Part shown: positions 8,301 through 31,064 of the stretch, piece after piece
Layout of the letters: every line of letters starts with the position of its first letter
Position numbering within the stretch: the stretch's first letter is position 1
Origin: a virus
Direction: 5' to 3' (one strand)
DNA length: 39,157 nucleotides
IMG/VR virus record: IMGVR_UViG_3300030085_002620
Coordinates: 1 to 39,157 of that record
Translations under genes and position numbers: made by a program
The notes under the pieces: model-generated
Databases searched by the model: none
Told to the model about the DNA's origin: nothing
The model's input: only the letters and a program-made list of their open reading frames with translations

Positions 8301-9426
8301 GTTCACATTTACGGGTCAGGTCGATACTCCTCTGCTCACCTTCTCCGAGCAGAAGTTTGTTCAGGCAAGATTCCTCCCAGACGAGGCATTCACCACCTTC
8401 CAACTCAGAGTTACCGAGACTGGTCTGCAACCTGTCGAAGTTCATGGAGAACTGGACGAGTCCTTTACTCCTGCTCCAGAAGTTGGAACTGGAAGACTCT
8501 ATGGATTCAGTGGTGCAGCAGAAGCAGCAGTCTTCAATCCAATCGACAAGACTACTCTCTTCTCCTTCGAGGGCAATGCTGCAGAGAGCGAGACCAATTC
8601 TATGGTCGCGTTTGGATCTCTCTTCGGATTTGCATCTGGAGTCGAAGTTACTGCGGTCGCAGAAGAGAAGCAGGCACTGTTCTCCTTCGCTGGCAATCTT
8701 CAAGAGCGTACTACTCCTGCTCCACACGTTACAACTGGCGGACTCTTTGGATTCTCCAGCACAACCGAAGCGAAGGTCTTCGATTATCCAGAACGCACTA
8801 CACTTTACAAGTTCCACGGAACAGCAGAAGAGAGTGCATCTATTGCAGAAGAAGGAACTGCAACTCCTGGTCTGGATGTCAATGGCAATCTGGTCGAGAG
8901 TGCAACATTCGCGCACGCGGGTACAGGTTCGATCTTCGGATTCTCCAGCACAACCGAAGCAAAGGTCTTTGTTCCTCGCGGACTCAGAAACATCTTCACC
9001 GTCGTTGGCAATGGTGCAGAGAGCGAGACCAATGTCGAGATTGGTTCTGGTACACTTACTGGATTTGTTGGTGGAGCAGAGAGCACATCCAACGTCGAGG
9101 TCAAGTTCACTCTCTTCACAATCGGTGGAGAGACAGTTGGTGGAGATGTCAAATTTACTGCTGCAAATCTGGCGGTTGGTCAGGTCAGAATTGGTCTCAG
9201 CAACGACGGAATACCTGGAGACGGATCCAGAGGTATCACGATCTTCAGACTCAGAACCTTCCCAGAGGGTCCAAAGGTCAGATTTACTGGAACAAAAGCA
9301 GAGTCCTTCACTCCAGCACCACATATCGCTGAAGGTCTCATCGATATTGAGAAGGGAACTAAGGATACTAAGTCCAGATATATTGAATATAGAGACCCAC
9401 AACCTACTAGAATTGTAGTTATCTAA
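5347..9426 (+). CDS. Giant repeat-rich virion structural protein, 1359 aa
   Basis: The largest gene here. From about residue 330 onward it is built of roughly 25-45 residue beta units of the type GSGSLFGF-SxxAExxxF-PxxxxxLFxFxG, alternating with acidic xEDYGxIT units near residues 30-75, 200-230, 420-460 and 640-710. Some units are nearly identical at DNA level (a 41-base exact copy at 7903 and 8170, 267 bases apart and in frame), so the array is still expanding or being homogenised. No catalytic motif or transmembrane span is visible. Its place between fibre genes and its own late-type promoter suggest a particle component, possibly a long decoration or fibre protein. Confidence 0.7.
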   Translation: MALFQYNGIGSLRSLGNRFTTQRAVYSYNQFSILNYEELNYGSITDAVIEAEDYGEITASIEQYYQIQDFGTITLDTTGVPMGKIGIHLSADDATTRVSVGGVEFALFGRAITEVFFNPVDRVFDFQGVAVDRTTSSWLGRGVLPPVEAEALDAVVAIPPTSIFHLSTKGSAKTEVIFNKQDRILGFVGEASESRSYLFDQDDAIDFESDDFGFLNETVLRSEDYGLVTELQDVPSWDFSNVEDRGFLSPETTIKVHGRMPFSGGATESFVKGNYDGSVGNKQPRLVGTAIDYTIPKHFGDGWINIDGSPRVQIRMHYKADGGWDFYPNRFRGGSLFGFSSTAETTSVLSEGSGKLFSVKSTTTFKAVRSEVGVSEEDILVQGGAFYEVIFNQVDRVFSFNNEEINRRAFAYNLSSVVNVESIDYGFITDTITVAEDYGDVSYDEIYYPWQKEDFGTLAPTTTRLPFGLGRLHSSTETPRVRNFVGNQEHAHLRVLGTGKVYVLPKFTSKGDLVKLRGDTTFSRARDWVGTGNLPTVSGTAEAVAFVPAKDDRALFNFEGELVEKFGKGNYDGVGQLFGFDSSSVSIIIGVTVSGLFSVHGEVVDKAIFNEVGSGSLGHFDGGAESVTFDYNSESSFGVCEGEDYGSVAEPPFNVGASAVIGPYANDLISTYANREVSSFGTVPNAIDYGYVNQYYQYNHEDYGTLYPDDCLEPQGLQLQFVSTTTDSLVKPFIGSGSIFSFVGGEEETATEWTGSGTLDLNGELQESVTPATEIGSGSLFSYVSFTEAAAFVPAKADPLFAIDGGLRISAVKEQESELKFTAAWEASGSLFGIDGSGEATGNEHTGSGSIFVRDSGVRIEPESFTPWIPEGRGSIFSFVSFTESATFVPAKKKALFGFSGAATDIRFTAAYVTIETTHLLLRGSPKIFVLPKHTGAGTLFVRDSGVRIEPESFTPFIPPGEGNIGNFGGAAEAFGANPPDDFTLFTFTGQVDTPLLTFSEQKFVQARFLPDEAFTTFQLRVTETGLQPVEVHGELDESFTPAPEVGTGRLYGFSGAAEAAVFNPIDKTTLFSFEGNAAESETNSMVAFGSLFGFASGVEVTAVAEEKQALFSFAGNLQERTTPAPHVTTGGLFGFSSTTEAKVFDYPERTTLYKFHGTAEESASIAEEGTATPGLDVNGNLVESATFAHAGTGSIFGFSSTTEAKVFVPRGLRNIFTVVGNGAESETNVEIGSGTLTGFVGGAESTSNVEVKFTLFTIGGETVGGDVKFTAANLAVGQVRIGLSNDGIPGDGSRGITIFRLRTFPEGPKVRFTGTKAESFTPAPHIAEGLIDIEKGTKDTKSRYIEYRDPQPTRIVVI
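7903..8210 (+). repeat. In-frame 41-bp exact direct repeat pair inside the 1359-aa gene
   Basis: The same 41 bases occur at 7903-7943 and 8170-8210, encoding the VRDSGVRIEPESFT segment twice, 89 codons apart. A second shorter pair, encoding GFSSTTEAKVF, occurs near 8749 and 8938 (189 bases apart). Both periods are multiples of three, so gain or loss of a unit keeps the reading frame. Confidence 0.85.
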
Positions 9427-9463: not shown

Positions 9464-9922
9464 ATGGCTAATACCAAACGGGTACAACTGCGTAAAGGGA
9501 CGGAGTTGGAGCACTCTACATTTACTGGTGCTCTTGCTGAAGTAACTTTTGATACTGATAAAGGGACAATTAGAGTTCATGATGGACTCACTTTGTCTGG
9601 GGTAGAGATTCAAAAATCTCGATTGACTGATTTAGACGGTTCTCATAATGGCAATGTCCTGAGAACTAATATGAAATACTTTAGTGATACCTCAGCAGGT
9701 CCTTTTGCAGTTTATCTACCAACACTTCGATTTGTAGGAGATACTATTCATCTTGCAGATTCCAAATACACCTGGAATATAAATAATCTTACAGTATATG
9801 CTCAAGGTGGAGACCAAATAAAAGACAGCACTGGGTTCATCGATACATTTTTAAACTGTGACGTTGCTGGTGAGTATGTCGAACTTATTTGGGAAGGAAC
9901 TTTCTGGAGGATGTTCTCATGA
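9464..9922 (+). CDS. Virion protein with Mtd-type N-terminal domain, 152 aa
   Basis: Residues 4-50 (KRVQLRKGTELEHSTFTGAL, then a TFDTDKGTIRVHDG turn) match the short beta domain found at the N-terminus of phage tropism and tail-fibre proteins (the Mtd N-terminal type), which anchors a protein in a fibre. The C-terminal 60 residues (GDTIHLADS, NNLTVYAQGG, VELIWEGTFWRMFS) resemble the capping module at the end of the 1279-aa fibre and the protein at 28534. It is coupled to the next gene by an ATGA overlap. A small fibre or adaptor protein is likely. Confidence 0.65.
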   Translation: MANTKRVQLRKGTELEHSTFTGALAEVTFDTDKGTIRVHDGLTLSGVEIQKSRLTDLDGSHNGNVLRTNMKYFSDTSAGPFAVYLPTLRFVGDTIHLADSKYTWNINNLTVYAQGGDQIKDSTGFIDTFLNCDVAGEYVELIWEGTFWRMFS

Positions 9923-10293: not shown

Positions 10294-13200
10294 ATGGCTG
10301 ATTTTAGATTAGGAAGACTAAAATTCAATTGGAGAGGCGACTGGGCTCCTAGCACCGAATATGTCATTGATGATATCGTCAAGTTTGGTGCTAACACTTA
10401 TGTCGTCACTACCAATCACACCTCCGCTGCGAGCGAAACGGAATGGTATGACACCGATGAGTCATACTGGAGTCTGCATGTTGAGGGTATCCGTAACGTA
10501 GGATCGTATACACAAGGAACCTTCTACAAAATTAACGATATCTTCAAGTATGGTAACACTCAATATCGTGTTACTGCAGGTATCGGAACCACTGCAGGTC
10601 TGGTGTTCCCAGGTATTGGGACCATGGCACCAGCAAACCCCAACGTAGTATCTTATGTTGCTGGTTTTAATGGTGAAGGTGACTGGGATGCTGGTACGGT
10701 ATACGAGACTGGAGACGTTGTTCTCTATGCTGGTAACTCTTATGTTGCTATTTCTACCTCTGTACAGGGAGCAATTCCTCCAACTGAACTTGATACTCAG
10801 TGGGAATTCCTCGCACAAGGTCATAACTCTGTAGGTCTGAGCACCTATGAGTCTGGAGTTACCTATTACAGAGGCGACTTGGTAACCGTTGGTGGTGATA
10901 CCTATCAGGTAGTTGCTTCTTCTGCAGAGTATATCCACCCAACTAAGGGTCTGACCATTGGTATTGGTTCTACTACAGTTGGTGTTGCTCAAACTGCATG
11001 GTCTCTGTATAACAGAGGTCTGAGATATGCAGGATCCTTCTCTACAACTACTGAATACTTCAGAAATGATGTTGTTGAGTATGCATCGTCTTCTTATGTT
11101 GGTATTGCTTCTACTTCCGTAACTGGAATTGTTCCTGGATCTGATCAGACCAAGTGGGCAGCGATGGCAGTTGGTGATTCCAACGCTCTGCTGACACAAA
11201 CTGGTGATATTCTGATTAGAGACAATACTGCTCCAACCAGACTGGGTGTCGGAATGACATATCAGTCACTGGGTATTGGAACAGATAACGTTCCTACTTG
11301 GATGACCATCGGTGATTCCACTAGAATTTATCACGTTGACCCCGAACTGGGTAAGGATACCTTCAATGGTAGCACCCCAGACATGGCGTTCAGAACGCTG
11401 AAGACAGCATGTGATAACGCAAGCGCGATTACAGATATTACTGGATTCATTTATGATGAAGTAACTGGTCTGTCTACAGTTACAGCACCAAACCACGGTA
11501 TTCTTTATCCAAATATTACCGTTAGACTGAGAGACATTGAGTTCTCTTGCCTCTCTGGTGGTAATAGTTATGCAGTTAACGCATTCCAGTATGATGCTGG
11601 TGCTGGTATTGCAACTTGTACCGTTGGTGCAGCAATGACTGGTCTCAATGTTGGAGACACAATCAGACTTGATAACCTTGAATTCACCTGCCCAGGTGGT
11701 TCTGGTATCACAACAACCATCTTCCCTGATGGAACAAGACCTGAAGGTTATAACTTCACCGTAAGTGCAATCAACGGTCCTCAGCAGATTGAATTCTCTG
11801 TTGGTATCTCTACCATTCAGCACGTATACGTCTCTGGTGGTACACTGTTTGTTGGTGTTGACACTTCATTCTTCCCAAGAAACGTTCTTACATCTTACTT
11901 CAACGTTATTGACGTTGTTGACAACAATACATTCACCATTAACGCTGGTGTATCGTCAATCACTCACACTTATGTACAGGGTGGACAAGTTCTGAACCTG
12001 TCTCCTGCTGTTATTAGACTGTCTTCTTCTGAATTCGTTGAGCAACTTCCACTTGTTGTTCCTCCATTCACCTCTGTTGTTGGTTCTACGCTGAGATCTT
12101 CTAAGATTAGACCTGCTTCTGGTCTGTCTGCTGACGGCATAACTCCTAACAACCGTCAGACCATGTTCCAACTGTCTGACGCAACAACGATTCAGGGTCT
12201 GAACGTTGATGGCATGGTTGGATTTGATTATGATTCTTCTTATCCTTATCAGTTAGAGTACACTACTGTTAGAACTGGTGTTGGTACAACTGCTTGTGGT
12301 ATCTACTTCGCATACAACCCCAACTCTCCAATTCTGAACAAGTCCCCTTACGTTAAGGACTGTACTGCATTCGGTAATCCTCCAACTGATGGTGGTTCTG
12401 GTGGTGCTGGTGTTGGTGTCTTCATCGACGGTAACGTCCATGATTCTGGATTCCGCACGATGGTCTTCGACGCCTTCACTAACGTTCTGAGTGATGGTGC
12501 TGGATTCATCCTTGACAATGACGCTGGTGCTGAGATCGTCTCCTCCTTCACATACTACTGTAAGTGGGGTTACTACTCTGGTGGTGGTTCTAGAATTCGT
12601 GGTGTTGGTGGTAACAACTCTTACGGTGACTACGGCGTTATCGCATCTGGATTCTCTACTGCTGAGACTCCAAGAACCCTGAGACTGTTTGGTGACAAGC
12701 TCGACACTGCAGTTGGTACTATAAGCGGTACAATTGCAATCGGTAACACCATCACTGGTGGAACCTCTGGTGCTAAGGCAACCTTCATCAACGACCAAAC
12801 TTCTTCTGACGCGATCTACTTCAAGTACTATCCTGGTTACGGTGATCCTAGCGTTGGCGCTGGTCAAACCGTTGGTATTGGTACTACCTCCTTCGTTCCT
12901 GGCGAGTGGTTGAACTTCGTTGGATCTGGTACAACTGGTGCTATCCAAGTCTCCGCAGTCGCAGGATCTGTTGGTGGTCAGAAGGGCGTTCTGTTTGAAC
13001 TTGACCTTGCTGATGGCGCTAACTTACCACTGGTTGGTGACGCGATTGGTATTAAGACTACTGGTATTGGTAGTGATCTGGTCAATAACGACGCAAGATT
13101 CTACATCATCAACAACGTAACTGGATTCCAGACTTCCTGGACTCAGTACAGAGGTGACATTGGAGATTCTCCTGTTACTTACTCTGGTCGTGTGGTTGTT

Positions 13201-14133
13201 ACTGTATCTCCTGAGAAGGGAATCAGAACACCTGATACACGTACTGGACTTGGTGCTACTAACAACCTTGATGGTGGCGGTGGTTCCATGGTCGAAGTTA
13301 GAACTAAGTTCTCTAACGCACGTCTGACTGGTCACGACTTCCTCTCCATTGGTGTTGGTAACAAGGTTGAAACCAACTATCCAAACGTTAACGAGGCAAA
13401 CGTACAGCAGGGTAATGAGACCAACAACTTCGGTCCTGGTAGAGTATTCTTCGTCTCTACTGACCAAGGTGGTAACTTCAGAGTTGGTGACTTCTTCTCC
13501 GTTAACCAGTTGACTGGTGCTGCTACCCTGGACGCTTCCGCGTTCAACCTGTCTGGTCTGACAGAACTGAGACTGGGTTCACTGGGTGGTCAGATCGGTG
13601 AGGCGATCAACGAGTTCTCCTCTGACGAGACCATGAGTGGTAACTCCAACACCGCTTGCCCAACTGAATTCGCGGTTCGCGGATTCCTGACACGCGGCAG
13701 CATGGGTGTTGAGGCAATGGTTCCACCTAAGGGAACAACTGCACAAAGACCTGTATCTCCAATCCAAGGTGGACTGAGATTCAACACAGATCTGGGATCC
13801 TTTGAAGGATACAGCGGAACTGCTTGGGTGCCCATCGGTGGTCTGCAGAACGTAGATGTAACTACTACTTACACTGCATCTCCATTCCAGACCCTCTGGT
13901 GTGATACAAGTGGTGGTGGATACACTGTTACTCTTCCTCCAACTCCTAATAAGGGAGATGTCGTTAGAATCCTTGATGTTGGTAAGTCCTTCGACAGCAA
14001 CACACTCACGGTTGGCAGAAATGGCAAGCGTATCATGGGTGACGCAGCGGATCTAACGGTAACAACTGAAGGTGCAGCATTCGATCTGATCTTCTACAAC
14101 GACACATACGGTTGGAGAATCTTCTCCGTCTGA
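10294..14133 (+). CDS. Large fibre protein with carbohydrate-binding-like repeats, 1279 aa
   Basis: Five N-terminal repeats of about 55-60 residues, each with G-W/Y-x5-TxYxxxDIVxYGxxxY (for example GDWAPSTEYVIDDIVKFG at 14 and GDWDAGTVYETGDVVLYAG near 129), resemble small chitin-binding-type carbohydrate modules. From about residue 345 a VDPELGKDTFNGSTPDMAFR motif marks the start of a region like the beta-helices of phage tail spikes, followed by about 800 residues of Gly/Thr/Asn-rich beta sequence. The last 105 residues form a module shared with the gene at 28534. C-ending codons indicate high expression. A host-surface recognition fibre is the best reading; no lyase residues can be assigned. 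Confidence 0.75.
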   Translation: MADFRLGRLKFNWRGDWAPSTEYVIDDIVKFGANTYVVTTNHTSAASETEWYDTDESYWSLHVEGIRNVGSYTQGTFYKINDIFKYGNTQYRVTAGIGTTAGLVFPGIGTMAPANPNVVSYVAGFNGEGDWDAGTVYETGDVVLYAGNSYVAISTSVQGAIPPTELDTQWEFLAQGHNSVGLSTYESGVTYYRGDLVTVGGDTYQVVASSAEYIHPTKGLTIGIGSTTVGVAQTAWSLYNRGLRYAGSFSTTTEYFRNDVVEYASSSYVGIASTSVTGIVPGSDQTKWAAMAVGDSNALLTQTGDILIRDNTAPTRLGVGMTYQSLGIGTDNVPTWMTIGDSTRIYHVDPELGKDTFNGSTPDMAFRTLKTACDNASAITDITGFIYDEVTGLSTVTAPNHGILYPNITVRLRDIEFSCLSGGNSYAVNAFQYDAGAGIATCTVGAAMTGLNVGDTIRLDNLEFTCPGGSGITTTIFPDGTRPEGYNFTVSAINGPQQIEFSVGISTIQHVYVSGGTLFVGVDTSFFPRNVLTSYFNVIDVVDNNTFTINAGVSSITHTYVQGGQVLNLSPAVIRLSSSEFVEQLPLVVPPFTSVVGSTLRSSKIRPASGLSADGITPNNRQTMFQLSDATTIQGLNVDGMVGFDYDSSYPYQLEYTTVRTGVGTTACGIYFAYNPNSPILNKSPYVKDCTAFGNPPTDGGSGGAGVGVFIDGNVHDSGFRTMVFDAFTNVLSDGAGFILDNDAGAEIVSSFTYYCKWGYYSGGGSRIRGVGGNNSYGDYGVIASGFSTAETPRTLRLFGDKLDTAVGTISGTIAIGNTITGGTSGAKATFINDQTSSDAIYFKYYPGYGDPSVGAGQTVGIGTTSFVPGEWLNFVGSGTTGAIQVSAVAGSVGGQKGVLFELDLADGANLPLVGDAIGIKTTGIGSDLVNNDARFYIINNVTGFQTSWTQYRGDIGDSPVTYSGRVVVTVSPEKGIRTPDTRTGLGATNNLDGGGGSMVEVRTKFSNARLTGHDFLSIGVGNKVETNYPNVNEANVQQGNETNNFGPGRVFFVSTDQGGNFRVGDFFSVNQLTGAATLDASAFNLSGLTELRLGSLGGQIGEAINEFSSDETMSGNSNTACPTEFAVRGFLTRGSMGVEAMVPPKGTTAQRPVSPIQGGLRFNTDLGSFEGYSGTAWVPIGGLQNVDVTTTYTASPFQTLWCDTSGGGYTVTLPPTPNKGDVVRILDVGKSFDSNTLTVGRNGKRIMGDAADLTVTTEGAAFDLIFYNDTYGWRIFSV

Positions 14134-14146
14134 TGTATACGGTACG

Positions 14147-14175
14147 GGGGGGACTTTGGGTTCCCCCTCTTCTTT
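14147..14175 (+). terminator. Intrinsic terminator
   Basis: A run of seven G plus A pairs with TTCCCCC(T) (stem about 14147-14153 with 14162-14168, loop of eight) and is followed by a pyrimidine-rich CTTCTTTATT tail. It begins 13 bases after the stop of the 1279-aa fibre and precedes a late promoter. Confidence 0.7.
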
Positions 14176-14189: not shown

Positions 14190-14197
14190 TATAAATA
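14190..14197 (+). promoter_or_regulatory. Late promoter motif TATAAATA
   Basis: Perfect octamer ending 24 bases before the ATG at 14222. With the terminator just upstream it isolates the three cysteine-rich genes as one late unit ending at the terminator at 16666. Confidence 0.8.
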
Positions 14198-14221: not shown

Positions 14222-15004
14222 ATGGCATCCTACGGAAGTTACAAAAAGATTGTACAAGGTCAGATTATAGATGGCACTGTACCTAATGCCGCTCTTGATC
14301 CAAATGCGGGACTTAAATATTATGTGAAGCACATTTATGGGCAACCTCAGGTTTGCTCTCCTGGTTGTTGCTGTCTTTGGACAGTTCCTGATGGAGTCAA
14401 GAGAGTGACCTTTGAACTCTGGGGTGCTGGTGGTAATGGTAACGGACACTGCTCTTGCAACCGCTGTCACCACTATCAAGGCGCTGGTGGAGGATTTTAC
14501 TCCAGTAAAACCATTAGTGTTCAGGGAGGTTGGCAGTATACTGTTTGTGCTGCTGGTGTTTATCGTTGCTGCTCTAGAGAGTGTGTTGGATGTAAGGGTT
14601 GCTCCTCATATGTAAATGGGTGCAATTTGAGTGGATTCTGCGCTAACGGTGGTTCTTGCGGAAGAGCAAATACCAGCTGGGATACTGCATGTTACTCCTT
14701 CTTTGAGTGTTGCGCGGAACCAACATCAAATAATGCTGACTTCCAGATGGGTAATCACATTGGTCACTGGGGTGGATCAGTCTTCTGCCACTGTAACTAT
14801 CAGTGGACTTGTACTACTAATGCACCATTCCTTGCTGGTGGATCTGGCTCTGCATCTGCACTTGTTAACTGCTGGAACCGTTGTGGATGCTGGCACGTAC
14901 CATACGGTGTAGGTGGACAAAGTGGTATGACCACTTATTGTGAGAGATGCTGCGGACAAGGTGGCATGGGTGGCGGCGGACTCGTCAAGATTACCTACGT
15001 TTGA
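14222..15004 (+). CDS. Cysteine-rich glycine-rich virion protein, paralog 1 (260 aa, 28 Cys)
   Basis: Begins MASYGSYKKI, then a beta segment and the CSPGCCCLW cluster near residue 44. The pattern VTFELWGAGGNGNG followed by a C-terminal GGGGLVKITYV is that of the glycine-rich beta domain used at phage tail-fibre tips and adhesins. Superimposed on it are 28 cysteines, including CSCNRCHHY (about 78-86), CCSRECVGCKGC (about 119-130), FCHC and CERCCGQ. Cys at nearly 11 percent points to dense disulfides or metal binding. No signal peptide is seen. First of three tandem copies under one late promoter. Receptor-binding tip is the leading inference; metal carrier is an alternative. Confidence 0.75.
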   Translation: MASYGSYKKIVQGQIIDGTVPNAALDPNAGLKYYVKHIYGQPQVCSPGCCCLWTVPDGVKRVTFELWGAGGNGNGHCSCNRCHHYQGAGGGFYSSKTISVQGGWQYTVCAAGVYRCCSRECVGCKGCSSYVNGCNLSGFCANGGSCGRANTSWDTACYSFFECCAEPTSNNADFQMGNHIGHWGGSVFCHCNYQWTCTTNAPFLAGGSGSASALVNCWNRCGCWHVPYGVGGQSGMTTYCERCCGQGGMGGGGLVKITYV

Positions 15005-16210
15005 TCGGAGCATAAAAAGAAATGGCAAACTATTCTAGTTACAAGAAATTAAGTGCCGATAGTATCGTAGATGGTGCTGTCGAAGCAGCAGACTTTAGTA
15101 CTGCTCTTAATGGAACTTATGGTGTTAAGTGGTTCCACGGTGGACCATGCCGATGCACACCTGGATGTTGCTGTCTTTGGCAAGTTCCTACTGGAGTGAA
15201 GACACTTCAAATTCAAATTTGGGGTTCTGGCGGTAATGGTTCTGGTGCATGTTCATGCAACCGTTGCCATCACTACAGAGGTTCAAGTGGTGGATACTAT
15301 AATGTAAAAACCATTGATGTTCAAGAGGGTTGGCAGTATACTGTATGTGCTGCTGGTGTTTATCCATGTCTCTCTAGAGAGTGCTCTGGTTGTGAAGGAT
15401 GTACTTCTTATGTAAATGGATGTAATCTGAGTGGATTCTGTGCCAGAGGTGGTGCAAGAGGATATGCGAACACCAGCTGGGCAGAACTATGCCACTCTGT
15501 TAATGAGTGCTGTGTTCAACCAGGACAACATGGTGGTGACTGGTATCAAGTCACTCATACAGGAAGTTGGTCTGGTGCTGAATTTGTTTATGACAGAGGA
15601 TTCTGCCATTGCTATAACCAAGGAATGTTCTCCAGTGGTGCTGCACTGATTGGAACGGTGTCTACACAGTCTATTAGAGAGTGCTGGATTAAGTGTGCTT
15701 GTTGGTCTGTTCCTTATGGTAATGGTGGTGCAAGTGCTATGACTTCATATTGTGAACGCTGCTGTGGTCAAGGTGGTACTGGTGGCGGTGGTCTCGTTAA
15801 GATCACATACTTCTGATCCTAAATAAACTTATAGAGAGCGTCAACAAATGGCACAGTATTCTAATTATAAGAAAGTAAGCGGAGAATCCTTCCCAACAGG
15901 ATCGATTGGTCCAACAAAGGTTGCAACAAGTGGACTGGATACTTGGAATGTTAAGTGGGTTTATGGGTGTGCATGTGCGACCAGTCCAGGTTGCTGCTGT
16001 CTTTGGACAGTTCCTACTGGTGTAAGAAGAGCTACTTTTGAACTCTGGGGTGCTGGTGGTAATGGTTCTGGATCTTGTTCATGCCAGCGTTGTCACATCT
16101 ACGGTGGCGCTCAAGGTGGATATTACAATACAAGAACTATTGATGTTCAAGCAGGTTGGACATATACTATTTGTGCTGCTGGTGTTTATCGTTGCTGCTC
16201 TAGAGAGTGT
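14544..16210 (+). repeat. 41-bp exact direct repeat between cysteine-rich paralogs 1 and 3
   Basis: Identical 41-base copies at 14544-14584 and 16170-16210, in the same codon phase, over the CAAGVYRCCSREC-encoding segment. Recombination between them would delete copy 2 and produce a 1/3 hybrid. Confidence 0.85.
15022..15816 (+). CDS. Cysteine-rich glycine-rich virion protein, paralog 2 (264 aa, 26 Cys)
   Basis: Same architecture as its upstream neighbour: MANYSSYKKL start, CTPGCCCLW, IQIWGSGGNGSG, CSCNRCHHY, CLSRECSGCEGC, SYVNGCNLSGFC, CERCCGQGGTGGGG and terminal LVKITYF. It lacks two cysteines found in copy 1 (YPCLSRE for YRCCSRE, and ARGGARG for ANGGSCG). Its middle segment (about residues 165-220) differs most from the other copies, including an insertion around EFVYDRGFCHC. 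This conserved-frame, variable-middle pattern is what a recognition surface would show. Seventeen bases separate it from copy 1, and GGAG precedes its ATG. Confidence 0.75.
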   Translation: MANYSSYKKLSADSIVDGAVEAADFSTALNGTYGVKWFHGGPCRCTPGCCCLWQVPTGVKTLQIQIWGSGGNGSGACSCNRCHHYRGSSGGYYNVKTIDVQEGWQYTVCAAGVYPCLSRECSGCEGCTSYVNGCNLSGFCARGGARGYANTSWAELCHSVNECCVQPGQHGGDWYQVTHTGSWSGAEFVYDRGFCHCYNQGMFSSGAALIGTVSTQSIRECWIKCACWSVPYGNGGASAMTSYCERCCGQGGTGGGGLVKITYF

Positions 16211-16630
16211 TCTGCATGTAAGGGATGTAACTCTTACGTCAACGGATGCAACCTCTCCAACTTCTGTGCAATCGGTGGTCAACCTGGTTGGGGTGAGAAC
16301 AGCTGGTCTCTTGCTTGCTTCTCCTACTGGCCTTGCTGCTTAGCACCAGGTAACAATGGTGGAGAATTTGGAATGGGACCTCACAGAGGACATTACTGGA
16401 ACCCAAGAGGTGTGTTCTGCCATTGCCATGGTAGATATACTATCCCAACTGCTGCTCCATTCATTGGAACCAATGTCATGCAGGCAAACAACTTCTGCTG
16501 GATTCGTTGTGGTTGCTGGAGAGTTCCCTATGGTCATGGTGGACAGAATGGTATGACCAACTACTGCGAACGCTGCTGTGGTCAGGGTGGTACTGGCGGT
16601 CCTGGTCTTGTCAAGATTACTTACGTCTGA
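15848..16630 (+). CDS. Cysteine-rich glycine-rich virion protein, paralog 3 (260 aa, 27 Cys)
   Basis: Third tandem copy: MAQYSNYKKV start, SPGCCCLW, FELWGAGGNGSG, CSCQRCHIY, CCSRECSACKGC, FCHCHGRY, CERCCGQGGTGG and LVKITYV end. A stretch of 41 bases over the YRCCSREC segment is identical to copy 1 (14544 and 16170), while copy 2 differs there, implying recent exchange between copies 1 and 3. The middle region (NSWSLACFSYWPCC to the FCHC motif) is copy specific. A weak TAAATA-containing sequence lies upstream, but the copies probably share one transcript ending at the terminator at 16666. Confidence 0.75.
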   Translation: MAQYSNYKKVSGESFPTGSIGPTKVATSGLDTWNVKWVYGCACATSPGCCCLWTVPTGVRRATFELWGAGGNGSGSCSCQRCHIYGGAQGGYYNTRTIDVQAGWTYTICAAGVYRCCSRECSACKGCNSYVNGCNLSNFCAIGGQPGWGENSWSLACFSYWPCCLAPGNNGGEFGMGPHRGHYWNPRGVFCHCHGRYTIPTAAPFIGTNVMQANNFCWIRCGCWRVPYGHGGQNGMTNYCERCCGQGGTGGPGLVKITYV

Positions 16631-16665
16631 TATAATAAAGATTCCGTGTGAAGGAAGTGAAGGGG

Positions 16666-16690
16666 GGGTGCTAACCGCACCCTCTTTTTT
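16666..16690 (+). terminator. Strong intrinsic terminator
   Basis: GGGTGC/GCACCC stem (16666-16671 with 16677-16682), five-base loop, then TCTTTTTT. It closes the cysteine-rich trio, and the next late promoter starts ten bases further on. Confidence 0.9.
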
Positions 16691-16750: not shown

Positions 16751-17461
16751 ATGGCAACCAGACAAATTAGAGTTGAGTACGATCTCGCTCTCCCCAACGA
16801 CTTTTTAGTCGATCACGAACAAACTGACGGTAACACCAGAACCGCAACTTATAATGGTCCCGATAAAATCTATCTTCAAATTGGTGAAGATGGAACCGAG
16901 AAGCACGGACCACTCACAGAAGATGACATCGCAGATGGTCGTCCCATGCCTGAAGATGTTGTTGATTGGTTTGAAGTTGATTGTGCAACCAACCCTCTTG
17001 TTTGTGAACTGAGAGGTCCAGTTGTTGATGAACTTCAAGAGGAGTACACTGCTAATGTAGTTCATGCAGCAACTCCAGAGGTTGATGGATACCCACAGTT
17101 CTATTATTCAACTCCATTGATGCCTGCTGATATCTATGATAAGCAGTCTTTAAAAGTTGTCGATGGTGAAATCACTCTGGATAAGTGGACTGTTGTCCAG
17201 AAACTTCTTGATAGAGACGAAGATCTTACTTGGGATGATATCAGAAGAAAGAGAAACGACATGCTTGAGCAGTGTGACATGAGAACCAGCACTGACATGC
17301 CTTCTTCCATGCTTGAAGAGTGGAAAGCATATCGTGTTAAATTGAGAGACTTCCCTGCTACAATGCAAGCAGCTGGTGTAGCACCTAACTGGGCATTCTA
17401 TATGTTCCCATTAAGTCCTACTGATGCCGCTATTCCTAGAGGCGAATTTGAAACTCTCTGA
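16751..17461 (+). CDS. Tail-fibre assembly chaperone-like protein, 236 aa
   Basis: The N-terminal half is acidic and unlike known domains. The C-terminal half, about residues 160-230, carries the pattern of phage tail-fibre assembly chaperones: a basic-hydrophobic helix with RRKRNDMLEQCDMRTSTDM, then EEWKAYRVKLRDFPA and a WAFYMFP end. Such proteins help fold or trimerise fibre C-termini and are usually encoded directly after the fibre they serve, which here would be the cysteine-rich trio or the 1279-aa fibre. AAAGGA precedes the ATG. The family call rests on the C-terminal pattern only. Confidence 0.7.
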   Translation: MATRQIRVEYDLALPNDFLVDHEQTDGNTRTATYNGPDKIYLQIGEDGTEKHGPLTEDDIADGRPMPEDVVDWFEVDCATNPLVCELRGPVVDELQEEYTANVVHAATPEVDGYPQFYYSTPLMPADIYDKQSLKVVDGEITLDKWTVVQKLLDRDEDLTWDDIRRKRNDMLEQCDMRTSTDMPSSMLEEWKAYRVKLRDFPATMQAAGVAPNWAFYMFPLSPTDAAIPRGEFETL

Positions 17462-17471: not shown

Positions 17472-18008
17472 ATGAATGAGAATTATAAAATTTACAAGCA
17501 TGACTATATTATAGAAAACCAATCGGAGATTATCAAGACAGCAGTAATGTGTCATGATAGTCTCCTCTCCGATGGATTTGGAGACACTACATGGAGTTAT
17601 TATTTGTATAATATCTTCAGTGTCTCCTCTCCATCTTTGCATTATCTAAACATCTTTAGAAAACTAAGAGATGTAATTAGAGAAAATGTAAAAGAAGAAA
17701 ATATTTGGTTACAGGCATGGTTAAATGTGCATGAACACAATACAGTTTTAGATTGGCACAATCATTCAGCACCCTTTCATGGGTATATTGCATTAGAACC
17801 ACAAGATACTACAACCGAGTTTGAGGATTGGAGTATCAAAAATGAGACTGGAAATATATACTTCGGTAATGGTAATGTAAGACATAGAGTTGTAAATGAC
17901 TCTTATTATTCTGGAAAAAGATTTACCATTGGTTTTGATGTGATACCTGGGAGTGTTTTTGAATACGCATATCCAACTAAACAGTATGGGGCAATGCCAT
18001 TACTATGA
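17472..18008 (+). CDS. Putative 2OG-Fe(II) oxygenase-like protein, 178 aa
   Basis: The core LDWHNHSAPFHGYIALEP (about residues 92-109) followed by TGNIYFGNGNVRHRV and KRFTIGFDV looks like the double-stranded beta helix of small 2-oxoglutarate Fe(II) oxygenases: a His-containing first strand, a distal His (RHRV), and a basic residue on the last strand. The canonical HxD is not clear (HNH instead), so metal ligation is uncertain. It opens the accessory cassette, 10 bases after the chaperone, and overlaps the next gene by 4 bases. Substrate unknown; protein or glycan hydroxylation would fit the neighbourhood. Confidence 0.5.
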   Translation: MNENYKIYKHDYIIENQSEIIKTAVMCHDSLLSDGFGDTTWSYYLYNIFSVSSPSLHYLNIFRKLRDVIRENVKEENIWLQAWLNVHEHNTVLDWHNHSAPFHGYIALEPQDTTTEFEDWSIKNETGNIYFGNGNVRHRVVNDSYYSGKRFTIGFDVIPGSVFEYAYPTKQYGAMPLL

Positions 18009-18610
18009 TGTTTGATTTAAATCATGAACTTAAAGCAAGAGTTGTAAAGGTACTTGATAAACAAGTTATAGAGATAGAAAATTTTTACAAAAATCCTGAT
18101 GAGGTTAGGAAGTTTGCTTTAGAAGCAAAGAAGTATACTAGAGATGAGAATGAAGACTTACTTAAATCCGTAGTTGGTCGGAGAGTATGTGAGGACAATC
18201 TTGAACTGACAAAATTGAGCAGTGTATTTGAACAATTATGCAATCATCCTGAGTGGCATATTGATTTTGATAAAGAACATCATGATTATTATTGGTCTGG
18301 AATGAGATTCCTGGTCAATGTTACAAACAATCAGGAGATCTTAGATGATGGGAGAGATATTATTATGCACGTCGATGGTCCTAGAAATAAATGGGCGTGT
18401 GTGATATATCTTAATTTATTATTAGAGTGTGAGGGTGGCACGGGGTTCTATTCATATGTTCCTGAGTTTGACAAAATAAAGCTTGAATATATGTCTGACA
18501 TGAAGTATAATAAAGCAGTATTATATGACGCTAATATGATCCATGGTGCTATCATGGAGAAGAATATGTTCAGACACTGTGACCGTTTGGTACAGGTCAT
18601 GTTCATGTGA
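18005..18610 (+). CDS. DUF6445-like putative oxygenase, 201 aa
   Basis: Has the layout of the DUF6445 group, whose members look like 2OG-Fe(II) oxygenases: an N-terminal ENFYKNPDEVRKFAL, a central IIMHVDGPRNKWACVIYLN with HxD (His and Asp of HVD near residue 119), GGTGFYSY, YNKAVLYDANMIHGAI with the distal His, and a late Arg (CDRLVQVMF). All three expected Fe/2OG positions are present. It is coupled to the gene before it (ATGA) and followed by a late promoter. A related protein is encoded at 35522. Substrate cannot be inferred. Confidence 0.6.
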   Translation: MMFDLNHELKARVVKVLDKQVIEIENFYKNPDEVRKFALEAKKYTRDENEDLLKSVVGRRVCEDNLELTKLSSVFEQLCNHPEWHIDFDKEHHDYYWSGMRFLVNVTNNQEILDDGRDIIMHVDGPRNKWACVIYLNLLLECEGGTGFYSYVPEFDKIKLEYMSDMKYNKAVLYDANMIHGAIMEKNMFRHCDRLVQVMFM

Positions 18611-18616
18611 TAAATA
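18609..18616 (+). promoter_or_regulatory. Late promoter motif GATAAATA
   Basis: NATAAATA match overlapping the upstream stop codon and 40 bases before the ATG at 18657. It is the only late-type motif I found at the head of the long overlapping run 18657-27694, and it implies late expression of the cassette. Confidence 0.6.
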
Positions 18617-18656
18617 ACCCAGATTATAATTCATTATCCATTTGGAGTTTGATTTA

Positions 18657-19838
18657 ATGAGATCAAAAGCATTTTTTGTCAATGGTGGAGCTGGCAGAGT
18701 AATTTGCTCCATCCCTGCATTTGAAAAATATGCAGAGACCCACGACGATTTTGTTATCGTTTGTGAGGGAGGCACCGATTTTTTTAAAGGACATCCAACT
18801 CTGGATGGAAAGGTATTCGATAACTGGCATAAAGGTCTGTTTGAACAGGAACTGAAGCACAGAGATATTGTTACCACAGAACCATATCGTATCTGGGAAT
18901 ACTATAATCAAAAGTGTAGTCTTTCTCAAGCATTTGATATTCAAATCAATGAACTTGATGGTCCTAGAGAACTTCCTTCCCCAACAGTTAATCTTGGCAA
19001 GATGGAAGCGATTGCTGGATTCAATGCAGTAGAAGAAGTTCGCCAAGGAAGTGGTAAGAATAAAGTATTAGTTGTTCAACCATTTGGTAGATCTGTTGAA
19101 CAGATTGGTGATGACTTTATTGCTGATGCCTCGGCACGTAGTTTTTCTCTCAACAATATTGTTAGTATTATTAACGAGTTGAAGAAGGATTATGCTATCA
19201 TTATCATGAGTGAGATTCAATTCCCACTTGAAGAGAATGAAGAGAAGTCTAAGTATAAAGTTGCTAGACCTCAGATTCAGGACATGAGACTGTGGGCAGG
19301 AATTATTAATGCTGCTGATCACTTCCTTGGATGTGATAGTATGGGTCAGCATCTTGCTAAAGCATTTGGTAAGACTGCAACTGTTGTAACTGGATCTACT
19401 TACCCCATTAATATTTCTTACCCAGATTGTAAGGATTTTGATATTGTTGATGCTGGTCTTGATCGCAGAAAGTATTCTCCAATCAGACTGACTATGGACG
19501 AGGTAGTTGATCGTTATAATGATCAAGCAATGGAACTGTCCAAAGAACAAGAGAAGGAAGTAGTTGCTTCTGTTCGTAAGAGAATGGGTAAAGGAACTGC
19601 ATATACGAACTATAAGAAACCAGCACAGAATCAATCTAATAATGCTTGTTGCCCTCCACAACAACAAGCACCTGCGATGATGCCTTCTCAATCTACACCC
19701 GTTTATGGTGTTCCAAAGGGAACATCTAAACCTACTATTAAAAAACCAAAAGGTAATGGGTTTTTAGATAATGTAAAGACTGCAGAACAAAGCAAAGTAG
19801 ACACACAGGTTGGGGACATCCTTAGTAAACTGAAGTGA
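18657..19838 (+). CDS. GT9-like glycosyltransferase (heptosyltransferase type) with a low-complexity C-terminal tail, 393 aa
   Basis: Residues about 135-290 carry the sugar-nucleotide half of family 9 transferases: KVLVVQPFG, a following NNIVSIINELKKDYAIIIMSE strand-helix, then LWAGIINAADHFLGCDSMGQHLAKAFGK, the region that normally binds ADP-heptose. The N-terminal half starts FFVNGGAGRVICSIPAFEKYA, like the GDxxxxxPxxxxL start of heptosyltransferases. After residue 320 comes a Gln/Pro/Ala-rich linker with CCPPQQQ and a final amphipathic helix (FLDNVKTAEQSKVDTQVGDI). GT9 enzymes normally lack that tail. The start uses ATG 18657 below the late promoter, not TTG 18642. Donor and acceptor unproven. 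Confidence 0.65.
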   Translation: MRSKAFFVNGGAGRVICSIPAFEKYAETHDDFVIVCEGGTDFFKGHPTLDGKVFDNWHKGLFEQELKHRDIVTTEPYRIWEYYNQKCSLSQAFDIQINELDGPRELPSPTVNLGKMEAIAGFNAVEEVRQGSGKNKVLVVQPFGRSVEQIGDDFIADASARSFSLNNIVSIINELKKDYAIIIMSEIQFPLEENEEKSKYKVARPQIQDMRLWAGIINAADHFLGCDSMGQHLAKAFGKTATVVTGSTYPINISYPDCKDFDIVDAGLDRRKYSPIRLTMDEVVDRYNDQAMELSKEQEKEVVASVRKRMGKGTAYTNYKKPAQNQSNNACCPPQQQAPAMMPSQSTPVYGVPKGTSKPTIKKPKGNGFLDNVKTAEQSKVDTQVGDILSKLK

Positions 19839-19846
19839 GGTAAAGA

Positions 19847-21652
19847 ATGGCACAGTGGATTGCAGCAATTGCTAGGGGACATAACTCTGGCATTTGCTTA
19901 CTAAAAGATGGTGAGATGGTTATGTCTCTTGAAGAGGAGAGACTGTCTCGTCACAAATACGATGGAGGTCCACTTGCCTCCATGGTAAAAATCCTTGAGT
20001 ATACTAATAGACTTGATTATCTTGTCATTGCACATACTCAACCCTTGGATGATACATCTAGGATTGATTTTACTGGTGACAATATGTACACTGGTTTAGC
20101 AAGGAAACTTGGTTTGATTGATCGTAAAGCAGATCTGTATAACCATCCTCAAGTAATTGATCTTAGTAGAACTCACCATAAACTTCATGCTGCTTGTGCT
20201 TTTTATCGCTCTGGTTTTGAGTCTGCAGTATCTCTAGTGGTTGATGGTGCAGGAACTTTTATTCCCATGACTCTCGGTAGAGAAACTGAGATGACCTGGG
20301 AGTTGGAATCTGCATTTACCTGTGAGTATCCTGCAAACTTTAAAACTATCTATAAGCACCAAGCAGGAAGAGGTCCTTGGGGATCTGCAAAGATTGATGA
20401 TTTTGATAGTGAGGGTGAAAAAGAAGAGGGAACTCATGAGTTCATCCTTGATGAGAGTGCTGGTATTACAAAGGCATATGAGGCAGTAACTCAGTATTGT
20501 GGTTGGGCACCAATCGAAGCAGGTAAAACTATGGGATTATTCCCATATGGCAAACCAAATGATTTGATTCCATCCATTTATACTGATCATGGTGGAACTG
20601 CTGAGTGGAAGACTGCCGATAGAGATGTTATCGTTCCTACCTATCCCAATGGTGCAGTAGTTAATGAGGGAAGATATCCATTCCTTAGAACTCCTAAAGG
20701 TGAATCTGATCTTACTACACTAGAGAATCGTAGGGATATGGCGTATGCCATCCAGGTCGAGTCTCAGCAAATGGTTCTTGATCTTATCCGAAAGGTTGTC
20801 AAGATGTCTGGCAATAAGAACGTTGTTCTTTCTGGTGGATATGGTTTGAACTGTGTTGCAAACTATTGGTATCTTGATCAACTTAAAGATGAGGGTATTA
20901 ATCTTTTTGTTGAACCTGTGAGTAATGATGCTGGCACAGCAATCGGTGCAGCATATTTTGTGTATCATCAAGTGAGTGAATCTATGACTGTTCGGGAAAG
21001 AATTAAGGATCTTTATTATGGTCCAGAGTATACATACGAACCAGAATTCATTGAACAAATAGCAACTAATTGGGGTGCTACTGCTATCAGAGGAGGAGTA
21101 ACTTATTCTGATGTGGTTAGTTTGATTACTGATAAAAACATTGTTGCAATGTATCAAGGAAGGTCCGAGGCAGGACCTCGTGCTCTTGGTAATCGATCTA
21201 TTCTTTATGATCCTCGTGATCCTAATGGTAAAGATCATGTAAATGAGATTAAACATAGGGAATACTTCCGCCCCTTTGCTGGATCTATTCTTAAAGAACA
21301 TGTTCATGATTGGTTTGATCTTCGTGGAATGGAAGATACTCCATTTATGATGTATGCTGTTAAGTGTCAGGAGGGGATTGAAGAAAAAATTCCTGCAATC
21401 ATTCACGTTGATGGTACATGTAGAATTCAAACAGTGACGGAGGATGTTAATCCTCATTATTACGGTTTGATTAATGAGTTCTATGAACAGACTGGTTGCC
21501 CAATCATCTTTAATACTTCATTCAATCTTGGTGGAGAACCTTTGGTTGAGACTTTAGATGATGCTCTTCGTACACTTCACAACTCTCGTATTGAATACCT
21601 TTATCTCCCAGAGTATGGGTTGCTTGTAGAAGTTAAGAATGGAGATGACTGA
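19847..21652 (+). CDS. Carbamoyltransferase of the NodU/CmcH/TobZ family, full length, 601 aa
   Basis: Two-domain enzymes of this family make carbamoyl-AMP from carbamoyl phosphate and ATP in the YrdC-like C-terminal domain and pass the carbamoyl group to a hydroxyl in the Kae1-like N-terminal domain. Here the Kae1-like part has EERLSRHK (30-37), His110 and His114 of HHKLH, VVDGAG with Asp133, SGGYGLNC (329-336) and SNDAGTAIG (359-367), the metal and nucleotide motifs. The C-terminal domain has GPRALGNRS (443-451), HVDGTCRIQ and NTSFNLGGEPLV. All key features are intact. GAGG sits before the ATG. Acceptors in the family include sugars and antibiotics; here it is unknown, though the GT9-like neighbour suggests a glycan. 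Confidence 0.9.
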   Translation: MAQWIAAIARGHNSGICLLKDGEMVMSLEEERLSRHKYDGGPLASMVKILEYTNRLDYLVIAHTQPLDDTSRIDFTGDNMYTGLARKLGLIDRKADLYNHPQVIDLSRTHHKLHAACAFYRSGFESAVSLVVDGAGTFIPMTLGRETEMTWELESAFTCEYPANFKTIYKHQAGRGPWGSAKIDDFDSEGEKEEGTHEFILDESAGITKAYEAVTQYCGWAPIEAGKTMGLFPYGKPNDLIPSIYTDHGGTAEWKTADRDVIVPTYPNGAVVNEGRYPFLRTPKGESDLTTLENRRDMAYAIQVESQQMVLDLIRKVVKMSGNKNVVLSGGYGLNCVANYWYLDQLKDEGINLFVEPVSNDAGTAIGAAYFVYHQVSESMTVRERIKDLYYGPEYTYEPEFIEQIATNWGATAIRGGVTYSDVVSLITDKNIVAMYQGRSEAGPRALGNRSILYDPRDPNGKDHVNEIKHREYFRPFAGSILKEHVHDWFDLRGMEDTPFMMYAVKCQEGIEEKIPAIIHVDGTCRIQTVTEDVNPHYYGLINEFYEQTGCPIIFNTSFNLGGEPLVETLDDALRTLHNSRIEYLYLPEYGLLVEVKNGDD

Positions 21653-22305
21653 TGATTCATATTGATTGCTCAAAAGAGATTTTAGATTTCCGTCAGTATG
21701 ATCTGGCGGAAGATGAAGTATTTGTTATTGATAATCTCTTTCCTTGGTATCTTGTTCATCATGTTGACCAAGTTCTTCTACATGGATTTGGTTGGCAATA
21801 TGGTCTGTGTAGTGGGCATAAAGAAAATGCTGATGGAACTCCAGACTTTGATTATGACAAAGGTGCAGATTTAGATCTAGAGGTTCCTTGCTTTAAGCAA
21901 TCAATTTATCCTGCAAAGTCTGAGTCTGCACAGGATAGTGCATATCCCATGATTTATAATGCAGTGACTGCTTCTATCCCATTTGAGTTAGAGATGGGAG
22001 AGGTGTTGGTCAATGGTCAGCAGTACATTCATGATACGCTCATGCATCAAGACTGCTCTTGTGATAATGGTATTAGTTGGATTTACTACGTTAATAAGAG
22101 GTGGGAACCTGAGTGGGGCGGACCTACTATCATTGAATTGAATGGAGAGACTATTGAAGTCCTTCCAAAACCAGGTAGGGTATGTTTATTTAAAGGAAAT
22201 ATTCCACATAGAGGTGCTCCTCCAAACGGGGATTATTATCATGGTCTTCGTGCTACTTTAGTATTTAAAACTATGAGGAAGGATCCTCTCCCTGCTAGAA
22301 AATGA
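21652..22305 (+). CDS. 2OG-Fe(II) oxygenase, prolyl-4-hydroxylase-like, 217 aa
   Basis: A cytosolic oxygenase that would couple 2-oxoglutarate decarboxylation to hydroxylation. The HxD is HQDCS near residue 138, followed by ISWIYYVNKRWEPEWGG, then PKPGRVCLFKGNIPHRG with the distal His, and an Arg (GLRATLVF) positioned to bind 2-oxoglutarate. N-terminal DEVFVIDNLFPWYLV is the usual opening of this family. Start and preceding stop share a base (TGATG), and the stop overlaps the next start. Sitting between a carbamoyltransferase and another oxygenase, it probably acts in the same modification path. Confidence 0.75.
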   Translation: MIHIDCSKEILDFRQYDLAEDEVFVIDNLFPWYLVHHVDQVLLHGFGWQYGLCSGHKENADGTPDFDYDKGADLDLEVPCFKQSIYPAKSESAQDSAYPMIYNAVTASIPFELEMGEVLVNGQQYIHDTLMHQDCSCDNGISWIYYVNKRWEPEWGGPTIIELNGETIEVLPKPGRVCLFKGNIPHRGAPPNGDYYHGLRATLVFKTMRKDPLPARK

Positions 22306-22826
22306 AGGTAGACATTTTTTCTATTCCAATTTTTATTGATAAAATTGATTTAGAGATTTTAAATTTTCCAGAACAAGAATTAATTCCTACGTGGGATTCT
22401 CAAACTCCAACTTCATTTGGTAATGGACATGATTCAAAATTAAGTGAAGAAGGAACGGCACATTTGTGTGAGGTTATCACTAAAAATCTTGCAGAAGCGG
22501 GTCTCTTTGGTCAGAATCCAAGACTAGGATTTATGTGGAGAAATAAATACTCCGAGACTGACTATCAAGATGTACATATTCATCCTCATTGTCAGTGGAG
22601 TTTTATAATTTATGAGACTATGAAGTCTCAAACATCGTTTTTGAATCCTTCTGTTAAAGATATTCAAAATCAAATTGGTACAAGCGTTGAGGGATTTCCT
22701 CTAGACTACAAGCCAGATCTTGGACCAGGAGATATTATTATCTTCCCATCTTTCTTATTCCACTCTGTAAATAGAGGTGCTGGGGGGACATCTATATCTG
22801 GAAATATTTACATGGAGTATAGTTAA
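22302..22826 (+). CDS. Putative 2OG-Fe(II) oxygenase, 174 aa
   Basis: Has the signature of a family of small phage and bacterial oxygenase-like proteins: NKYSETDYQDVHIHPHCQWS around residues 84-103, and a C-terminal PGDIIIFPSFLFHSV followed by GGTSISGNIYME. His-x-His of HIH with the distal FHSV histidine could form the iron site, and the usual basic residue is replaced by a Ser/Thr-rich strand. The N-terminus (MKVDIFSIPIFIDKID) is a typical start for the group. ATGA overlaps on the 5' side and zero spacing to the halogenase on the 3' side tie it to that enzyme. Confidence 0.65.
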   Translation: MKVDIFSIPIFIDKIDLEILNFPEQELIPTWDSQTPTSFGNGHDSKLSEEGTAHLCEVITKNLAEAGLFGQNPRLGFMWRNKYSETDYQDVHIHPHCQWSFIIYETMKSQTSFLNPSVKDIQNQIGTSVEGFPLDYKPDLGPGDIIIFPSFLFHSVNRGAGGTSISGNIYMEYS

Positions 22827-24302: not shown

Positions 24303-24702
24303 AGTGTTTGTAAATGGTACATTTGATCTATTACACAAGGGTCACCTAGAACTTTTAAATTTTGCAAAGTCTCTAGGTGATAGACTTTATGTTGGTATTG
24401 ATACTGATAGGAGAGTATCAGAGAAGAAAGGTCCGTCAAGACCAATATATAATCAAGAAGAGAGAAAGTTCTTCTTAGAAAATTTAAAGGCAGTAGATAA
24501 GGTAAGCCTATTTGATTCTGATTTAGAATTAGAGGTATTGATTAATTTCATACAACCAGATATAATGGTTGTTGGATCTGACTGGGAAGGTAAGTCAGTC
24601 ATTGGATCAATGTATGCTGCTAAGTTAGTATTCTTTAGTAGAATTAGTGATTATGCAACCACAAAAACAATTCAACGTATTATTGATCGGAGAGACTTGT
24701 GA
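24289..24702 (+). CDS. Heptose-1-phosphate nucleotidyltransferase-like protein (HldE C-domain type), 137 aa
   Basis: Transfers a nucleotide (AMP in the HldE case) to D-glycero-beta-D-manno-heptose 1-phosphate, giving an NDP-heptose. The NGTFDLLHKGHL segment (9-20) holds the HxGH site of cytidylyltransferase-like enzymes, and DTDRRVSEKKGPSRPI and MVVGSDWEGKSVIGS follow as in the RfaE domain II family. The length matches a free-standing domain. It overlaps the halogenase by 14 bases and the kinase by 50. The same fold includes glycerol-3-phosphate cytidylyltransferases; the partner kinase next door favours heptose. Confidence 0.8.
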   Translation: MAQTKVFVNGTFDLLHKGHLELLNFAKSLGDRLYVGIDTDRRVSEKKGPSRPIYNQEERKFFLENLKAVDKVSLFDSDLELEVLINFIQPDIMVVGSDWEGKSVIGSMYAAKLVFFSRISDYATTKTIQRIIDRRDL

Positions 24703-26427: not shown

Positions 26428-26777
26428 GAGCATTGCTTCCTGGAATGAAGACTTATTGTATTGATATTGATGGTGTTATTGCTGCTAAGAATGGCACCTG
26501 TAAGACTTGTAAGTACGAAGCAAGCACTCCTATGAGGGAGAATATTGAGAAGATCAATAAGTTGTATGATGAGGGGCACTACATTAAATACTTCACTGCT
26601 AGAGGTATGGGAACCTATCATGATGATGCAACACAAGCTAATGCTCGTTGGAGGGAGCTAACAGAACTTCAACTAAGGATTTGGAATTGTAAGTATCATG
26701 AACTTATCATGGGTAAACCATCGGCGGACTACTACATAGATGATAAGGCGGTAAATTCTAATGACTTCTTCAATTAA
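26424..26777 (+). CDS. Small HAD-superfamily phosphatase (capsule-type), 117 aa
   Basis: HAD motif I is DIDG (Asp14 and Asp16), motif II the Thr of YFTARG near residue 57, and the Lys/Asp end is GKPSADYYIDDKAV (about 97-110). That YIDDKA ending is typical of small phosphatases in capsule and LPS loci. It could be the phosphatase of the heptose route (acting on heptose 1,7-bisphosphate), although the Cys-rich loop of true GmhB is absent; the CKTCKY pair at about 26-31 is the only nearby Cys pair. ATGA overlap upstream, 17-base overlap downstream. Substrate is inference from location. Confidence 0.7.
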   Translation: MRALLPGMKTYCIDIDGVIAAKNGTCKTCKYEASTPMRENIEKINKLYDEGHYIKYFTARGMGTYHDDATQANARWRELTELQLRIWNCKYHELIMGKPSADYYIDDKAVNSNDFFN

Positions 26778-28469: not shown

Positions 28470-28484
28470 ATCTTTTTGTCCAAT

Positions 28485-28513
28485 ATTATATCAAATAAAT
28501 AATATTACTGCAA
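28485..28513 (-). promoter_or_regulatory. Sigma70-like promoter for the minus-strand epimerase
   Basis: On the minus strand, TTGCAG and TATAAT are 17 bases apart; the -10 lies about 15 bases before the start codon of the epimerase. The predicted leader is only about 9 bases with no clear ribosome site, so either the start or the promoter may need adjusting. Confidence 0.45.
28494..28501 (+). promoter_or_regulatory. Late promoter motif AATAAATA
   Basis: NATAAATA match 32 bases before the ATG at 28534. It sits in the 17-base spacer of the minus-strand sigma70-like promoter, so the two are physically overlapping. Confidence 0.55.
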
Positions 28514-28533
28514 CAATTTTCAGGATATATCCG

Positions 28534-30120: not shown

Positions 30121-30132
30121 TTTTTTACTGAT

Positions 30133-31044: not shown

Positions 31045-31064
31045 TACAAAGATTCAATAATAGA

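Follow-up and report, generated by a model that had tools for sequence, protein, structure and literature searches.

Why would a phage, whose particles are made in the cytoplasm, carry three consecutive genes for proteins in which roughly every tenth residue is a cysteine, and what do the three proteins do together? We addressed these questions for IMG/VR record IMGVR_UViG_3300030085_002620, a 39-kb viral record that was analyzed over its full 39,157 nucleotides (hereafter, the window) and that is a fragment of a cyanomyovirus, with the Synechococcus phages Sf-FS3 and S-SSM7 as the nearest isolates.

Composition and setting of the gene triplet

The three genes lie between a gene for a tail-fibre protein and one for a putative fibre-assembly protein, as follows.

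10294..14133, + strand: long tail-fibre protein, 1279 aa (phrog_9851 tail fiber, E 5e-258)
14146..14168, + strand: terminator-like hairpin preceding the unit (stem of 10 bp; folding energy -16.6 kcal/mol, z -1.9)
14190..14197, + strand: T4-type late-promoter-like TATAAATA (exact match to the consensus; a consensus match only)
14222..15004, + strand: paralogue 1 (P0001), predicted cysteine-rich TNF-like/glycine-rich adhesin, 260 aa, 28 Cys (PHROG 4205 E 3e-49; position-1 lineage in the tree)
15022..15816, + strand: paralogue 2 (P0002), predicted cysteine-rich adhesin, 264 aa, 26 Cys (PHROG 4205 E 7e-55; position-2 lineage in the tree)
15848..16630, + strand: paralogue 3 (P0003), predicted cysteine-rich adhesin, 260 aa, 27 Cys (PHROG 4205 E 3e-52; PF21722, 24.9 bits; AlphaFold2 pLDDT 84.8; Foldseek match 7ypx_A)
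16659..16689, + strand: terminator-like hairpin closing the unit (stem of 13 bp and a U tract; folding energy -19.0 kcal/mol, z -3.8)
16751..17461, + strand: putative fibre-assembly chaperone, next gene (PF16778 Phage_tail_APC, E 6.9e-8; phrog_4912 tail fiber assembly, E 1e-6)

A preliminary description of this DNA had reported three tandem open reading frames of ~260 residues with 26–28 cysteines; all three are present, we counted 28, 26 and 27 cysteines, and the cysteine motifs quoted there (CSPGCCCLW, CSCNRCHHY and CERCCGQ) all occur in them. The cysteine density called extreme in that description is unusual also by comparison within the window, amounting to 10–11% in the triplet proteins vs 0.81% (54/6683) in 13 other window proteins; the glycine share is ~17%. 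Paralogue 1 is 59% identical to paralogue 2 and likewise to paralogue 3. As had been described, the N- and C-terminal frameworks are conserved and the middle (~residues 150–215) diverges, with column entropies of ~0.6–1.3 bits in the conserved frame vs 1.7–2.8 bits in the variable middle. An N-terminal motif, MAxYxSYKK, is near-invariant and common to all three paralogues.

The triplet had further been described as an isolated late unit. In the window, two terminator-like hairpins and TATAAATA in front of the genes agree with this, and a second T4-type TATAAATA lies at 16700, beyond the end of the triplet; however, the layout is not general, as the exact late-promoter motif is found in only 9% of relatives vs a background of 3.6%. 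The flanking genes are much more constant: a homologue of the tail-fibre gene precedes the triplet in 121/121 loci, and a homologue of the window's putative fibre-assembly gene directly follows it in 122/124.

Two side observations concern other genes of this region. The products of 9464-9922, 10294-14133 and 28336-30120 have in common a C-terminal domain of ~90 residues (phrog_31104/phrog_9648; weak similarity to T4 gp9/10), which may be a shared module for docking or for fibre ends. At 5347-9426, a cysteine-poor protein of 1359 aa is encoded that contains numerous degenerate repeats, along with long antisense ORFs; the protein is perhaps a repeat-built fibre.

Fold and predicted role

All three proteins and 143/143 relatives match, over their full length, the profile of PHROG 4205, a family without known function whose members carry the label hypothetical in annotated records; SSSM7_114-116 of S-SSM7 and 97-99 of Sf-FS3 are full-length homologues in the same order and with the same neighbours. 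The Pfam family PF21722 (Gly_rich_2) lists P0003 at 24.9 bits vs a gathering cutoff of 24.3 bits, does not list P0001 and P0002, and matches 64/143 relatives at E ≤ 0.01. Sequence searches of the PDB with a single protein and with the 143-row profile detected no related sequence, and a search of the triplet proteins against NCBIfam gave no match; a Pfam GP41 match of P0001 (E 0.07, far below the cutoff) was taken as chance.

An AlphaFold2 model of paralogue 3, generated from an alignment with the 143 relatives, reached a pLDDT of 84.8 and a pTM of 0.79, with lower confidence and only three-residue helices in residues 1–33. The best Foldseek match of this model in the PDB was the Pam3 fibre (7ypx_A; E 9.6e-7, prob 1.00, TM 0.50/0.52 over 260 columns), followed by the Bxb1 tail tip and then by the glycine-rich domains of the animal receptors ALK/LTK, which have a similar fold (E 2e-3 and weaker). 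In the viral library, the matches included S-CAM3, P-SSM2, many phage glycine-rich proteins and Syn9 gp38 (Q0QZJ0), and the T4/S16 gp38 adhesin fold (6F45) was absent from the 50 best Foldseek matches. The glycine-rich tip-like fold of the preliminary description is thus supported by a confident model and its structural matches, by Gly_rich_2 in P0003 and 64 relatives, and by the slot between fibre and assembly-type genes. Because these fold matches, Gly_rich_2 and the position point in the same direction, a receptor-binding tip is the best-supported role; based on the model, we consider it very probable that the triplet proteins are adhesins with a TNF-like/glycine-rich fold, and the 1279-aa tail-fibre protein is the probable carrier of the tip.

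The closest structural relative is instructive in its likeness as well as in its differences. Pam3 gp24 is a homotrimeric fibre with gp25 as its chaperone, and the end composed of its TNF-like and glycine-rich domains is proposed to bind the receptor (PMC9608196). Pam3 is also a cyanophage, and gp24 (PDB 7ypx, 7yfw) resembles the triplet proteins in that its TNF-like and glycine-rich domains match them over their whole length; moreover, gp24 has a chaperone partner and the triplet adjoins the PF16778 gene, a likeness that consists of position and the PF16778 match. In contrast, gp24 is the homotrimeric product of one gene whereas the window has three genes, and gp24 docks to the baseplate by a long helical N-terminal stem whereas the triplet proteins have a short N-terminus with no such stem in the AlphaFold2 model. 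The Pam3 glycine-rich domain has 39% glycine, with no cysteine mentioned in PMC9608196, vs ~17% glycine and 10% cysteine in the triplet. Unlike the Pam3 fibre, the Bxb1 tail tip and ALK/LTK, the triplet family has ~20 near-invariant cysteines.

In Syn9, gp36 and gp38 are glycine-rich and occupy a similar slot after putative fibre genes, but they have only 8 and 2 cysteines and more glycine than the triplet proteins, and thus represent the ordinary cysteine-poor version. Because this slot in Syn9 holds cysteine-poor glycine-rich proteins, one of which (gp38) is a structural match, we conclude that the family is a cysteine-loaded version of a known TNF-like/glycine-rich phage adhesin scaffold. 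Glycine-rich domains are a widespread and poorly understood way in which phages present variable receptor-binding loops.

Three copies and their proposed assembly

Three copies with ~56% identity are present in the isolates Sf-FS3, S-SSM7 and S-SSM6a, and the family persists in several genera of Kyanoviridae and in numerous marine viral contigs. The divergent relatives in S-CAM1, S-CAM3 and P-SSM2/P-SSM5 have 25–36 cysteines and have 10–17 cysteine columns in common with the window proteins. PSSM2_304/306 of P-SSM2 and the S-CAM1/S-CAM3 proteins lie, like the triplet, in the slot after the tail fibre and share its cysteine columns, but they are longer, with two copies in P-SSM2 and three in S-CAM1. 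Among distinct complete clusters from viral contigs, MAG contigs and isolates, exactly three copies were found in 123/123 outside the P-SSM2 type; this type, with two copies, is the only exception, so that the wider family does not invariably have three. In the P-SSM2-type loci L027 (7716-10579) and L028 (3398-6317), the two proteins have 27–36 cysteines and a helical-looking N-terminal extension, and a cysteine-free chaperone-like gene lies between them. Of note, four loci (L105-L108) assigned to MAGs of Actinomycetota, Rhodobacteraceae, Flavobacteriales and Euryarchaeota contain the cyanophage triplet and are probably mis-binned phage contigs.

In a tree of 178 proteins, the position label changes 12 times vs 87 in shuffles, and the three positions are mostly old position-specific lineages. 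Within several lineages, copies at different positions are nevertheless close kin: positions 1 and 3 are closest in the S-SSM7/Sf-FS3 lineage and positions 2 and 3 in L039/L048/L078, and all three copies form one clade in L103/L104 and in S-CAM1/L108. This kinship indicates that copies have sometimes been replaced while the number was held at three, and a constant three despite replacement fits the need of an A-B-C complex. The suggestion that the three are variants of a receptor-binding protein therefore holds as regards the receptor-binding fold, but rather than loose alternative specificities they are three fixed paralogues (123/123).

The natural oligomer of the TNF-like fold is a trimer, and the head of C1q, built from three genes, may be likened to the proposed A-B-C tip. 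A precedent comes from virophage DSLV2, in which three consecutive tail genes give rise to one heterotrimer that binds Synechococcus LPS (PMC12724248). The likeness lies in three consecutive paralogous tail genes that are strictly kept, as in 123/123 clusters of the present family; by contrast, the DSLV2 tail has a T4 gp37-tip-like fold and the triplet a TNF-like/glycine-rich fold, with no relation of sequence or fold shown.

We also modeled an artificial 803-aa chain in which the stop codons of the L004 triplet, which is close to the window's and lies in a single frame, were read through as glycine. The alignment consisted of 34 read-through rows, each spanning either the whole triplet or its first two genes; unpaired single proteins had been misplaced onto one domain, MAFFT had put most domain-2-3 rows in the wrong place, and both kinds were excluded. 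The AlphaFold2 model reached a pLDDT of 66.6 and a pTM of 0.77 and does not distinguish a hetero- from a homotrimer. Three independently placed domains would, by our own estimate, reach a pTM of only ~0.3, which argues that the network places the three domains together; however, it might equally well bring together three copies of a single subunit. Foldseek matched only single domains of the fused model, a result without bearing on assembly.

Taking these lines together, we lean slightly towards assembly of the three paralogues as one A-B-C heterotrimer. The strongest competitor, which we regard as unlikely but well worth weighing, is that they form three separate homotrimeric adhesins on different fibres or sites with three receptor specificities. 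Pam3 gp24, a TNF-like fibre, is a homotrimer (PMC9608196), the P-SSM2 relatives come as two copies with their own helical-looking N-termini and a chaperone-like gene in between, and the middle segments of the three paralogues differ, all of which would suit such adhesins; yet a set of alternative adhesins is expected to gain and lose members, contrary to exactly three in 123/123 clusters, and the triplet is followed by a single chaperone-like gene and has one N-terminal motif in common.

The cysteine framework

In 248 distinct homologues, 20 columns are at least 95% cysteine, and cysteine is the most conserved residue type, with a mean column entropy of 0.55 bits vs 0.88 for glycine. Between the window proteins and their near relatives, 23–27 of the 26–28 cysteines are kept while 5–15 cysteine codons switch between TGT and TGC, and dN/dS over whole proteins is 0.08–0.24. 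Because the residue is kept while codons drift, cysteine is the most conserved residue and dN/dS is low, we conclude that the cysteine richness is selected.

At some pairs of positions, cysteine occupies one site or the other, as structurally paired cysteines would be expected to do. None of the 248 sequences has cysteine at both site 104 and site 134 (185 have cysteine only at 104, 43 only at 134 and 20 at neither); C104-Y/H/F134 and W104-C134 are the usual combinations, and the tree requires ~16 changes to account for the switch between them. In 12 independent contrasts, these sites changed 7.6 times in opposite directions and never in the same direction (median p 0.008), and sites 45 and 117 are likewise exclusive (p 0.016), both p values being optimistic since the site pairs were picked beforehand for strong correlation. 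Sites 142 and 163 are exclusive too, with site 142 having changed only about twice. Relocation of a cysteine with the other side kept is a mark of structural pairing, and on sequence grounds the exclusive sites favour pairing. Cross-position cysteine correlations follow deep lineages and are inseparable from gene conversion.

Cysteine-number parity gave no sign of complete pairing in single proteins or in triplet sums: odd and even totals are about equally common in the 248 homologues (123:125), and the summed cysteines of triplets show no even bias (38 even, 48 odd). Because odd and even totals are equally common, not all cysteines pair within a chain. At the same time, a CHC motif is near-invariant (H192, 96%) and a CxCxRC motif is conserved; either inter-chain disulfides or a metal site might underlie the odd totals as well as the near-invariant histidine of CHC.

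Overall, we judge it somewhat more probable than not that the cysteines form disulfides rather than metal sites or free thiols. Metal-loaded tips, in which CxC, CxxC, CHC and CxxCH would bind zinc or iron to hold the loops, appear improbable: the CHC and CxCxRC motifs and the odd cysteine number in half of the proteins would be accounted for, but no metal-binding family was matched in Pfam or NCBIfam, metals in the open ocean would be scarce for a tip with many sites, and the cysteine relocations fit the geometry of pairs equally well. Much less probable still are reactive thiols, i.e., free cysteines that would exchange with thiols or disulfides of the host surface for covalent attachment. 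Equal odd and even counts are compatible with them, and the phage encodes a glutaredoxin (30133-30396; PF00462, CPYC active site) that is possibly relevant to thiol handling; however, the cysteines are conserved in the structural framework and not in the variable segment, and glutaredoxin is common in T4-like phages. Similarly remote is a non-virion late protein with another role, e.g., metal storage in the infected cell, with which the hypothetical annotation and the lack of any virion proteome or biochemistry of a carrier phage in the literature searched are compatible (proteome papers for Syn9, S-PM2, S-SM1 and S-CREM2 are uninformative because those phages are not among the family's matches), but which the fold, the fixed slot between fibre and chaperone genes and the same-slot homologues in P-SSM2 and S-CAM1 speak against.

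The best overall explanation, to which we give an even chance, is a heterotrimeric, cysteine-cross-linked receptor-binding tip made of the three paralogues. Each subunit would be a TNF-like β-sandwich bearing a bundle of glycine-rich loops; paralogues 1, 2 and 3 would join as a single A-B-C heterotrimer with the product of 16751..17461 serving as assembly chaperone, and the N-terminal MAxYxSYKK would attach to the long tail fibre at its distal end. Up to approximately thirteen cysteine pairs per chain would replace the dense glycine packing of ordinary members of the fold, their disulfides stapling the extended loops and forming once the particle meets the oxidising sea, and the variable middle (~residues 150–215) would sit on the loops and read the cyanobacterial surface. 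In its strictest form, which we put forward tentatively as rather less than an even prospect, the A-B-C tip would be obligate, with glycine packing replaced by a dense cysteine network that is locked after lysis.

If true, such a tip would contain ~80 cysteines and be made in a reducing cytoplasm, raising the question of how ~80 thiols become oxidised or metallated in a cytoplasm-made phage. A partial precedent is Agrobacterium phage Milano, whose virion proteins are disulfide-cross-linked even though phages assemble in the cytoplasm (PMC10811340); there, however, the structural proteins concerned (sheath, tube and baseplate) have 2.1% cysteine, whereas the triplet would be a tip with ~10%. 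The family with this cysteine-based scaffold also suggests that the tip is heteromeric, in contrast to the usual homotrimers; if so, each tip would present three different binding faces. Because the isolates S-SSM7, S-SSM6a, Sf-FS3 and S-CAM1 carry family members, the family is open to experiment.

Directly after the adhesin unit, the window contains an island (17472-32701) of carbamoyltransferase, tryptophan-halogenase-like, 2OG-Fe(II) oxygenase, cytidylyltransferase, PfkB kinase and epimerase-type genes, with a similar island in S-SSM7 and Sf-FS3.
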